Positions 12,808 to 15,750 of a DNA stretch of 41,743 nt are shown piece by piece; position 1 is the first letter of the stretch; each line of letters opens with the position of its first letter. The stretch lies in IMG/VR virus record IMGVR_UViG_3300033552_000022, positions 1-41,743 of that record; one strand, given 5' to 3'. Position numbers and translations under genes: made by a program. The stretch comes from a virus. Under the pieces are notes generated by a model that did not search any database, was not told the origin of the DNA, and was given only the letters and a program-made list of their open reading frames with translations.

Positions 12808-13407
12808 TCACGCCTCTTTCAGTTGTTTTAACTTCGATTTGTAGTGCGCCTTCAATTCCTGTAACTCTTCGATGCTCCACTTCCTCGCGGCGTCGTCAGC
12901 TTCCAGCGCCTCGACACGAGCAAGCCCGATGCGCGCAATTAGGCCGATGCGGTAATCGACAGCGTTGCCCGAGTTGTAGCGGTTCTCCTGCTTGCTCTGC
13001 GCGTGCACGTTGTCTTCGTTGAAGCGAAGGTGTGGCGCGCTGCCTCGTGAGCGGTAGTGGCCGGCATCCACGTTATTGCCCGACCAGTCCAGCGGCTTAC
13101 CGCTCGATATGCACGGCAGGCCAGCCAAACGGTCACGCTCACGGATGAAGGCGTTGAAGGCGAACTGCGCAGCCTTGATGTGGTCGGATCGCGTTTGCAG
13201 ACGACGCAAGCCCTCCTGGCGCTCGCTGCGTTCCTTGCGTACCCGCTCAGTCATCGCATGGTCGGCAGCGCAGACAGGGCCACAGCACTTGTGGGTCATG
13301 TTGCGAGGCGTGAACTCGGCGCGGCAGCTTTTGACGGCACATTTCCTTTGGCGCTGCTTGCGCTCCTTGGTGGGGAGAGGGCGCTTGAACTCGGAGCGGG
13401 TCAGCAT
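12808..13407 (-). CDS. ninG: NinG-family recombination protein
   Basis: 199 aa. Paired cysteines sit in the N-terminal zinc-like region (CAVKSCRAEF, HKCCGPVC), followed by FNAFIRERDRLAGLPCISSG and the hallmark NNVDAGHYRSRGSAPHLRF with HAQ. In lambda, NinG/Rap acts on recombination intermediates in the Red pathway, fitting the Bet/Exo pair in this genome. The start at 13407 is preferred because GGGAGG lies 7 bases upstream. It overlaps the methyltransferase end by 7 bp. Confidence 0.85.
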   Translation of the reverse strand: MLTRSEFKRPLPTKERKQRQRKCAVKSCRAEFTPRNMTHKCCGPVCAADHAMTERVRKERSERQEGLRRLQTRSDHIKAAQFAFNAFIRERDRLAGLPCISSGKPLDWSGNNVDAGHYRSRGSAPHLRFNEDNVHAQSKQENRYNSGNAVDYRIGLIARIGLARVEALEADDAARKWSIEELQELKAHYKSKLKQLKEA

Positions 13408-14156
13408 GTCAAGACCTCCCATGCTGTAGCCGCCACTCGTGGAACTTGGCCGTTGCCAAGGGCGCTAACTCGGTCCACCCTATGGGCCATCCCATGTACG
13501 CCTCGCACCAGGTTGCGTCCAACAGCCCGCCAACGGTCCACGGGAGAGTCTTCCCCATCGTCATCGAATCCCGCAATTGCCTGAATTCCTGGCTGCATGA
13601 ATCGCTCTTGAAGTCCCTCTTGGTCAAGGTCGGCAAGAATCCAGATTCGCTTTCTCTGATGGGGTGCACCAACGTCGGAAGCGGCCACAACTCCCCATAC
13701 AGCGCCATACCCCAGTTCGGAAAGGTCTCCGAGTACGCGTCCAAGCCCTCGACTAGTGAGGACTGGGCTGTTTTCCACATAGACGCGGCGGGGTCGTACC
13801 TCGCTAACAATCCTTGCCATCTCACCCCATAGCCCGCTTCGCTGACCTTCGATGCCTGCCCCTTTTCCCGCAGTGCTAATGTCCTGGCAGGGAAACCCGC
13901 CCGAAACCACGTCAATAAGTCCGCGCCAAGGCTTGCCGTCAAAGGTGCACACGTCATCCCAAACCGGGAAAGGCGGGAGTGTTCCGTCGTTTTGTCGGGC
14001 CAGTAGTACTGATCGGGCGTAGGCGTTGAACTCGACTGCGCAGACGGTGCGCCATCCGAGCAAGTGACCTCCGAGGATGCCCCCGCCGGCGCCTGCGAAC
14101 AGTGCGAGTTCTCGTAGTCCTTCATCATTGCGTTGCTGATTGACCAGGCCATTCAC
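13401..14156 (-). CDS. DNA (cytosine-5) methyltransferase
   Basis: 251 aa from a GTG at 14156 that overlaps the previous stop (GTGA), preceded by GGGGG. Motif I is ALFAGAGGG. Motif IV is GGFPCQDIS with catalytic Cys90. Motif VI is VENSP (E128). Motif VIII is QRKRIW, and motif X is ALGNGQVP with a conserved HRVDRV before it. All motifs needed for 5-methylcytosine transfer are present. The target-recognition region between residues 172 and 234 is short. It probably protects phage DNA from host restriction. A second frame is open through the entire gene. Confidence 0.88.
   Translation of the reverse strand: MNGLVNQQRNDEGLRELALFAGAGGGILGGHLLGWRTVCAVEFNAYARSVLLARQNDGTLPPFPVWDDVCTFDGKPWRGLIDVVSGGFPCQDISTAGKGAGIEGQRSGLWGEMARIVSEVRPRRVYVENSPVLTSRGLGRVLGDLSELGYGAVWGVVAASDVGAPHQRKRIWILADLDQEGLQERFMQPGIQAIAGFDDDGEDSPVDRWRAVGRNLVRGVHGMAHRVDRVSALGNGQVPRVAATAWEVLTC
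13409..14152 (-). CDS. Overprinted protein inside the methyltransferase gene
   Basis: 247 aa in another frame of the same strand, from an ATG at 14152 sharing the GGGGG ribosome site (spacing ~8). It starts MAWSISNAMMKDYENSHCSQ and ends with MGWPIGWTELAPLATAKFHE, both of which I recognise as recurring in phage hypothetical proteins. It is open for 98% of the methyltransferase length. Either it is a real overlapping gene or it is a database-propagated shadow. The closing MGWPIGWT block, reading as a coherent Trp-rich motif, favours the former. Function unknown. Confidence 0.5.
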   Translation of the reverse strand: MAWSISNAMMKDYENSHCSQAPAGASSEVTCSDGAPSAQSSSTPTPDQYYWPDKTTEHSRLSRFGMTCAPLTASLGADLLTWFRAGFPARTLALREKGQASKVSEAGYGVRWQGLLARYDPAASMWKTAQSSLVEGLDAYSETFPNWGMALYGELWPLPTLVHPIRESESGFLPTLTKRDFKSDSCSQEFRQLRDSMTMGKTLPWTVGGLLDATWCEAYMGWPIGWTELAPLATAKFHEWRLQHGRS

Positions 14157-14392
14157 GCTGCCCCCGTCTTTGGCTTTACCGCGAGGCCGCGCCATGGGAG
14201 GTTTTGGTGAGGCGAGCGATCATCGTGCTCGACGCAATTCTCGATACGGAACCAGCCGCCCAACTCCCAAAAATTGCCGTTCCAGCGCCAATAGCAAGGG
14301 TGTCCGTCATCGAACCCATCGTCACGCTGGTAGAACCCGACGCGCTTCGGCTTCACGCTGCCATCGAACCACGGTGTAAGTTTCTTGCTCAT
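14153..14392 (-). CDS. Small conserved phage protein (Trp-rich)
   Basis: 79 aa from ATG 14392, preceded by AGAGGA. An in-frame ATG at 14407 overlapping the helicase stop is possible. It contains LTPWFDGSVKPKRVGFYQRD and WRWNGNFWELGGWF, a pattern frequent in small phage proteins next to replication genes. Role unknown. Confidence 0.7.
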   Translation of the reverse strand: MSKKLTPWFDGSVKPKRVGFYQRDDGFDDGHPCYWRWNGNFWELGGWFRIENCVEHDDRSPHQNLPWRGLAVKPKTGAA

Positions 14393-14403
14393 GCTGTCCT
14401 CTT

Positions 14404-15750
14404 TCATTCAAAGCCTCTGGAACGTGGTTTGTGCTCTTGCTCGCGCTCATTGGGTGGAACCCATGCGTGCGTGAGGTCGGTAAAGTTGGTTGATGAGCCG
14501 ATGAAGTTCAGCCCGACGGTGCCGGGTTGCCCCTGACGCTGCTTGCCAGTGATCACTTCGCAAATCCCCTTATCCCGTGTCGCTGGGAAATAAGCCTCGT
14601 CCCGGTAGAGGAAAATGACGTTGGCGGCGTCTTGCTCGATTGATCCGGACATAGCCAGGTCGGCCATGATCGGGCGGCGATCTTGGCGCTTCTCGCACTC
14701 GCGGTTTAGCTGGGCCAGCAGCAGCACGGCACAGTCAAGCTCCTTGGAGAGCGCCACAGCGCCCCGCGTGTGCTCGCCAATGTCGTACGCCTTGTTCTCG
14801 CTAGAGCCACCCGTGATAAAGCTCAGTTGGTCGATCACGAGCAAGTCAAGGCCGTGCCGGCGCTTGATGCCCCGAGCCTTGGCGCGAATCTCAAGCATCG
14901 ACAGGCTGGTAGCGTCATCGATGTACATGTTGAGTTCTTGCGCCTTGGCAAAAGCAGCGGTAACGCGATCCCATGTCAGCGGGTCACTTTCCTTCGGCTT
15001 GCGCAGCCATGAGACAGACAACCCGCCAAGCGCGGCGATGTTGCGGTCGCTAACCTGCGTCTTGCTCATTTCCATGGACAGAAACAGGGACGTACCATCA
15101 ATGGCCACGTTGCGCGCCAGAGCCAAGCCCATTGCGGTTTTGCCCATGCCTGGCCGCGCAGCAAGAATTGACATGGTGCCGCGCTCAAGCCCACCGTCTA
15201 GCATCGTGTCGAGGTCACGGAAGCCGGTAGAGATTGGCTTGATCAGGCCATCCATGCGCGCTGTCAATAAATCGACATAGCCAGCAAGCAAGTCGCCAGC
15301 CTTGACCGGCTCGCTGCCTTCTTTGAATTGCGCGAGTTCATCGAGCTTTTGCGCCATGCGGTCGATAATGACTAGGGCAGGCTCTACGGCGTTTTGTGCC
15401 TCGGCCTGTGCCTGCACACCAAAACCATCAAGCGAACGCAGTAGGGCGCGATCTGACACGATTTGGGCGTGTTTGCTGACGTTCGCCCCGCTGCTTGCGG
15501 ACGCTTGGAGCGCGAACAGGTATTTCAGGCAGTCTTCGACCGAGTTTTTCAAAGCGTCGGCAACCGTGATTGCATCGGCCCGATGGCCTGCCGTGATCTG
15601 GCTCACCATTTCGGCAAAGATTGCTCGGTGGTCAGCACGGTAAAACTGATCGACGGCAAGTGTCGGGATACGGTCTAAGGCTCCGTTGTCCACCAGGAGC
15701 GAGCCGAGCACGGCCTGTTCTGCGGTAAGGCTGAAAAGTTCGCGAGTCAT
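14404..15750 (-). CDS. dnaB: Replicative DNA helicase, DnaB family
   Basis: 448 aa. The N-terminal domain is helical (SLTAEQAVLGSLLVDNGALD, as in DnaB). The RecA-like domain has Walker A ARPGMGKTAMG near residue 200, Walker B LLVIDQLSFI, a Gln-containing motif LLAQLNRECEKR and the C-terminal SGSIEQDAANVIFLYRDE typical of DnaB. It unwinds DNA ahead of the fork. The start at 15750 overlaps the replication-protein stop by ATGA. The two genes form an initiator plus helicase pair, so the phage needs no helicase capture but does rely on host polymerase. Confidence 0.93.
   Translation of the reverse strand: MTRELFSLTAEQAVLGSLLVDNGALDRIPTLAVDQFYRADHRAIFAEMVSQITAGHRADAITVADALKNSVEDCLKYLFALQASASSGANVSKHAQIVSDRALLRSLDGFGVQAQAEAQNAVEPALVIIDRMAQKLDELAQFKEGSEPVKAGDLLAGYVDLLTARMDGLIKPISTGFRDLDTMLDGGLERGTMSILAARPGMGKTAMGLALARNVAIDGTSLFLSMEMSKTQVSDRNIAALGGLSVSWLRKPKESDPLTWDRVTAAFAKAQELNMYIDDATSLSMLEIRAKARGIKRRHGLDLLVIDQLSFITGGSSENKAYDIGEHTRGAVALSKELDCAVLLLAQLNRECEKRQDRRPIMADLAMSGSIEQDAANVIFLYRDEAYFPATRDKGICEVITGKQRQGQPGTVGLNFIGSSTNFTDLTHAWVPPNEREQEHKPRSRGFE

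Follow-up and report, generated by a model that had tools for sequence, protein, structure and literature searches.

Can a phage methyltransferase gene contain a second, nearly full-length gene on the same strand, and if so, what does the second gene encode? This question is raised by a locus in a 41.7-kb virus record, the whole of which is called the window here, where a frame for a C5 cytosine methyltransferase (alpha, frame 1) is accompanied by a second open frame (beta, frame 2), which covers about 98% of alpha and starts 4 nt away from it (Table 1). In the original prediction, the GTG at 14156, the ATG at 14152, a 247-codon frame ending at 13409, the methylase stop ending at 13401 and a GGGGG at 14161-14165 had been read from the sequence, and all of these were found as described.

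Table 1. Features of the alpha/beta locus and its neighbours in the window.
Feature	Position	Strand	Description
Alpha frame, C5-methyltransferase catalytic chain	13401..14156	minus	GTG 14156 start, 251 aa (264 aa if ATG 14195); motifs I-VIII and X, without IX
Beta frame (second frame)	13409..14152	minus	ATG 14152 start, 247 aa; +1 relative to alpha; phrog_1008 match 1.3e-17
GGGGG, possible ribosome-binding site common to both starts	14161..14165	minus	4 nt to GTG, 8 nt to ATG; putative function
GTGAATG	14150..14156	minus	Alpha GTG, TGA of upstream gene and beta ATG interlocked within 7 nt
Upstream 84-aa gene	14153..14407	minus	Stop is the TGA between the alpha and beta starts; possible translational coupling
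NinG-like gene	12808-13422		Directly downstream of the pair; start ATG 13422 falls within alpha and beta alike; later ATG near 13407 possible
Motif I in alpha (ALFAGAGGG)	14079..14105	minus	Alignment of 57 sequences
Motif IV in alpha (GGFPCQD, Cys90)	13881..13901	minus	Alignment: G86, G87, F88, P89, C90 invariant; Q91, D92 nearly so
Motif VI in alpha (ENS)	13767..13775	minus	Alignment
Motif VIII in alpha (QRKRIWI)	13638..13658	minus	Alignment
Recognition-region part of beta (GFLPTLTKRDFK...)	13523..13642	minus	Homologous to the LLPTPxAxD region found in single-chain methylases; Ramsey gp69 matched by profile at aa 284-406
Motif IX in beta (LDATWCEAYMGWPIGWT)	13472..13522	minus	NN/NS 0.46 in frame 2, NN/SN 0.94 in frame 1; profile match; alpha reads the same DNA as an unconstrained linker
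Motif X in alpha (RVSALGNGQVPRVAATAWEVL)	13404..13472	minus	NN/SN 0.45 in frame 1; same DNA is a weakly constrained beta tail, NN/NS 0.91

When the methylase of the window was shuffled among synonymous codons, the second frame acquired 5.7 stops on average, and none of 1000 shuffled sequences was free of stops. The same comparison was extended to 64 non-redundant loci, consisting of the window and relatives fetched with the methylase protein alone, so that the choice of loci was unbiased by the second frame. Stops in relatives had been proposed as evidence against a selected frame, but 62 of the 64 loci had none, compared with 4.5 expected per locus after synonymous shuffling, and the exceptions were one locus with a single late stop (L029) and one with a single shifted frame (L101). 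By region, no stops were observed where 42 (start to WDD), 130 (WDD to motif VIII) and 83 (motif VIII to the end) were expected. The +2 frame typically contained about a dozen stops per locus, and no alternative same-strand frame in the other major genes of the window was open for more than 172 codons. In addition, the second frame was stop-free in 64 of 67 bacterial and archaeal loci with a recognised alpha, a set that is biased because it was fetched with frame 2.

Selection was estimated by classing changes according to their effect in both frames, in a simplified OLGenie style, using 27 independent pairs with 70-97% nucleotide identity, and flanking ORFs read in a mock +1 frame were used as controls. 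Over the whole of frame 2, NN/NS, a proxy for dN/dS, was 0.72 (0.62-0.81) compared with 0.95 in the controls, not the value near 1 that would have spoken against a gene, and changes silent in frame 1 that alter frame 2 were rarer than doubly silent ones (SN/SS 0.37 compared with 0.91 in the controls); the exact ratios should be taken as rough, given the small number of nearly saturated SS sites and the small control set (15 pairs), in which divergence is higher. The robust part of the result is that the constrained frame switches along the locus. In the region of motifs I-VIII, frame 1 is strongly constrained (0.16-0.23) and frame 2 moderately (NN/NS 0.54-0.67); in the motif IX region, only frame 2 is constrained (NN/NS 0.46, 0.36-0.57) and frame 1 is near neutral (NN/SN 0.94, 0.79-1.12); and in the motif X region, the constraint is mainly on frame 1, with frame 2 hardly constrained (Table 1). 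The earlier idea that the target-recognition region is constrained by both proteins is thus not supported at motif IX. The identity of frame 2 between relatives also exceeded the level forced by the residues of frame 1, with 0.408 compared with 0.298 in the region of motifs I-VIII and 0.487 compared with 0.253 in the region of motifs IX and X; here the effect size alone was used, because z-scores are inflated by the relatedness of the sequences. The second frame is open in relatives and under purifying selection, as in an overprinted gene, and is therefore a real, widely conserved gene and no coincidence.

Alpha alone has only part of a C5 methyltransferase. Motifs I, IV (PCQ), VI (ENV/ENS) and VIII, by which C5 DNA methyltransferases (PF00145) are recognised, are all on this chain, the Cys90 of GGFPCQD (GTG numbering) does not vary among the 57 sequences of the alignment, and motif X is present as SALGNGQVPRVAATAW with a C-terminal helix modelled at a pLDDT of about 90. 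Alpha matches phrog_363 (4e-61) and PF00145 (1e-28), the latter over aa 30-193 only. The statement that all motifs are present in the methylase was wrong, since the target-recognition domain (TRD) and motif IX are not in the same chain as motifs I-VIII; motif IX is absent from alpha and is found in frame 2. Likewise, no motif-IX-like string was found in the alpha frame of any of the 67 bacterial or archaeal loci with a recognised alpha. In the AlphaFold2 model of alpha, the catalytic large domain and the motif X helix are predicted with confidence, and pLDDT falls below 50 where motif IX would be expected. The model aligned to M.HhaI 10-320 over only 194 residues (Z 21), which is consistent with a small domain missing from alpha.

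The missing parts appear to be supplied by beta. The conserved C-terminus of beta consists of a variable number of (W/L)PTPxAxD units followed by LNPxWVEWLMGWPxGWTDL, in which LNPxWVEWLMGWPxGW is motif IX. Both protein ends that the original prediction had likened to phage hypothetical proteins recur, with MAWSISNAMMKDYENS and MGWPIGWTELxPLxTAKFxEW conserved in relatives. With the search-space size fixed at 100,000, the beta C-terminal profile matched the TRD/IX segment of the single-chain methylases Ramsey gp69 (E 7e-9) and prophi91-4 gp24 (4e-7) and that of Eagle gp77 (3e-7), which is the second gene of a split pair. Judged by these profile matches, the beta C-terminus is homologous to the segment between motifs VIII and X of single-chain phage methylases. 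The Mycobacterium phage Ramsey gp69 has the same order of parts in its DNA as the window (I-VIII, the LLPTPxAxD region, EWMMGWPxGW as EWMMGWPAGW, and the GNG motif X as IGNG), but all of them are in one frame, and its +1 frame contains 11 stops. The window therefore has this DNA order too, but with the recognition region and motif IX in the other frame.

The strongest argument for one two-chain enzyme, and against an unrelated second protein, comes from loci in which the complete motif set is distributed over two chains with motif X on beta. In four relatives, namely L191 (Paraburkholderia), L198 (Spirochaetia MAG), L207 (Euryarchaeota MAG) and L057 (virus), beta carries the recognition region, motif IX and motif X, and alpha stops soon after motif VIII in the first three and later, still before motif X, in L057. 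The same parts list was found in the actinophage split pairs Vash gp32/33, EagleEye gp89/88 and Eagle gp78/77, so that in all of these loci the two frames together give one full motif set. In L057:2011-3420, beta also has an insertion of more than 100 residues between motifs IX and X.

Two-polypeptide C5 methyltransferases are already known. In M.EcoHK31I, the beta gene lies inside the alpha gene in another frame. This enzyme (YGGCCR) has motifs I-VIII and X on the larger chain, with a TRD predicted on the same chain, and motif IX on the smaller chain, and in M.AquI (CYCGRG) a chain with the catalytic motifs I-VIII is accompanied by a second one that has motif IX and a large part of the recognition region (PMC3404938). 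By its description, M.EcoHK31I resembles the window in having motifs I-VIII and X on the first chain and motif IX on the second, but in the window the TRD-like sequence is in beta, beta covers nearly all of alpha with starts within 4 nt, and the methylase is a phage enzyme with no recognised restriction partner. The separation of the catalytic motifs I-VIII from the recognition region and motif IX is as in M.AquI; unlike M.AquI, the window has motif X on alpha and genes that overlap almost entirely. The M.AquI-like placement of motif X on the second chain is found in L191, L198, L207 and L057, and in Vash gp32/33 and Eagle gp78/77.

Taken together, the locus very likely encodes both chains of a two-polypeptide C5 methyltransferase, a catalytic alpha and a beta for recognition and motif IX, from almost fully overlapping genes, as judged from the sequences. 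Selection in both frames, the partition of the motifs, the homology of the beta C-terminus to the VIII-X segment and the exchange of motif X between the chains were computed directly. The large overprinted gene of the original prediction holds in that the second frame is real, selected and nearly fully overlapping, but an unrelated protein lying over a complete methylase is not supported.

Other explanations have to be weighed against this reading. The second frame could encode a separate protein with an unrelated role, such as anti-restriction or regulation, which overprints the methylase by happenstance. The N-terminal two thirds of beta, which have no recognisable homology outside this arrangement and are nevertheless under purifying selection, would fit such a protein, but the C-terminus is homologous to a methylase TRD/IX, exactly this segment is missing from alpha, and motif X moves between the chains, which makes this explanation unlikely. 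It is much less plausible still that the frame is open merely because the codon usage is rich in G+C and the methylase is conserved. Frame-1 residues do force part of the frame-2 consensus (shuffles keep 0.25-0.30 identity), and long stretches without stops in the +1 frame also occur in some single-chain methylases rich in G+C; such an origin is, however, contradicted by the stop counts, including those of the +2 frame, by the selection ratios, by the start signature and by the regional switch of constraint.

A +1 ribosomal frameshift past motif VIII, joining alpha to the second frame in one chain with I-VIII, TRD and IX, would agree with the relative frame, which is +1 in every case, and with L101, where motifs I-VIII and TRD/IX are in a single frame. 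However, conservation of the second frame begins at its own ATG, long before any point at which a shift would be useful, and the start overlap is conserved as well. A fused product would also be without motif X, since the window encodes this motif in frame 1, and inspection by eye of the alpha ends of L191, L198, L207 and Vash showed no shared sequence. We regard such a frameshift as slightly less likely than an unrelated protein. A hidden HNH endonuclease was also considered as the identity of the second frame, since out-of-frame HNH endonucleases inside phage DNA methylase genes (ShiLan domain) were described in 2025 (PMC11855218). Both cases have a second protein out of frame within a phage methylase gene, but the ShiLan-type HNH is a homing element, inserted and read in the third frame, whereas the second frame of the window is a part of the methylase without insertion, and this candidate was rejected.

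In the proposed two-chain enzyme, frame 1 would provide, as alpha, SAM binding, the PCQ catalytic loop, ENS, motif VIII and motif X, and frame 2 would provide, in the C-terminal third of beta, the target-recognition region and the motif IX that alpha lacks. The GTG and ATG starts are probably used behind one ribosome site, possibly with reinitiation of translation after the TGA of the upstream gene. The NTGA-ATG (NTG-A-ATG) start overlap was found in 44 of the 64 loci, and an upstream frame of at least 60 codons, or open at the contig edge, stops just before the beta ATG in the window and in 18 of 47 other loci. We infer that both chains would be translated and should assemble into one enzyme, which would methylate phage DNA and protect it against host restriction. 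Such protection is the likely job because no restriction gene was recognised adjoining the alpha/beta locus, which lies near a DnaB-like helicase gene and the NinG-like gene. Genes similar to the latter also follow the pair in L003 and L007.

For the N-terminal region of beta (about 165 residues), no known domain was matched. The second frame gave no recognised family in Pfam or NCBIfam, and PDB sequence searches with the frame or its profile gave no credible match. The AlphaFold2 model of beta, based on 80 sequences, was poor (mean pLDDT 57), and a fold search with such a model is meaningless. In the distant relatives L119-L122, L124 and L125, the N-terminal part of the second frame is absent, and the frame opens some 20-40 codons past the methylase start; motif IX is kept in this later-opening frame in L120-L122, L124 and L125 (for example, NPNHTEWLMGFPDGW in Rhynn), which suggests a shorter beta translated from an internal start. 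The conserved methionine of GMTxAPLT (M66 in the window) may be the counterpart of this start. It is quite possible, although we would not yet favour it, that alpha and beta overprint each other, with the recognition/IX DNA of beta read by alpha as a neutral linker and with the N-terminal region of beta, encoded across the catalytic domain of alpha, being a newly invented domain with its own function, such as holding alpha or tuning its specificity. A single-chain enzyme would then have been split between two frames, and the split would have persisted in phages and prophages of many phyla.

The pair was found in viral contigs and plasmid records, in named phages of Pseudomonas, Salmonella, Vibrio, Acinetobacter, Stenotrophomonas and others, and in genomes or MAGs of Pseudomonadota, Verrucomicrobiota, Nitrospirota, Planctomycetota, Omnitrophota, Patescibacteria, Spirochaetia and Euryarchaeota, where MAG contigs may be viral or misbinned. 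The collection was scanned with a profile of a closer beta subset, the profile of all 80 betas being too variable. In the records examined for loci of the window type, one of the overlapping frames was annotated, never both; it was frame 2 for phPA-G and SOVA965 and otherwise frame 1. The beta product is already a database family, since 79 of 80 second-frame proteins matched phrog_1008, but this entry ('DNA methyltransferase') is silent on the overlap, the motif split and a two-chain enzyme. Our literature search, which covered subscription papers thinly, found no paper on the alpha/beta overlap.

Among phage and prophage 'orphan cytosine methylases' with a single annotated gene, many probably represent only half of the enzyme, and, if the two-chain reading is true, expression of the annotated frame by itself would yield inactive protein. 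Same-strand gene overlaps that are almost complete are seldom so widespread, and selection in this one clearly switches locally between the frames. Methods for overlapping genes, and the question of how two proteins are started from one ribosome site, can therefore be tested cleanly on this pair. A natural split methylase would also be of interest for targeted-methylation designs.

Several loci depart from the common arrangement. In L101:1986-2771, the methylase frame continues into WPTPTATDWK...LMLWPIEWTDLKPL, motif X is in another frame and the second frame is shortened, which can be explained by one indel, either natural or an assembly error. In L179:2386-3484 (Gallionella), the second-frame N-terminus runs into first-frame methylase sequence and frame 2 goes on in the third frame, again by an indel or assembly error. 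In L130:1427-1936, L138:2461-2967 and L173:2461-3006, a stop interrupts alpha, before motif VIII in L138 and just past it in L130 and L173, with beta intact and motif X downstream in the same frame; broken genes or read errors may explain these loci, as may an arrangement in three pieces. The single-chain mycobacteriophage methylases L123:1191-2534 and L208:283-1857 have several LLPTPxAxD units in the recognition region, and the split versions likewise differ in the number of units, which might be a modular means of changing specificity.
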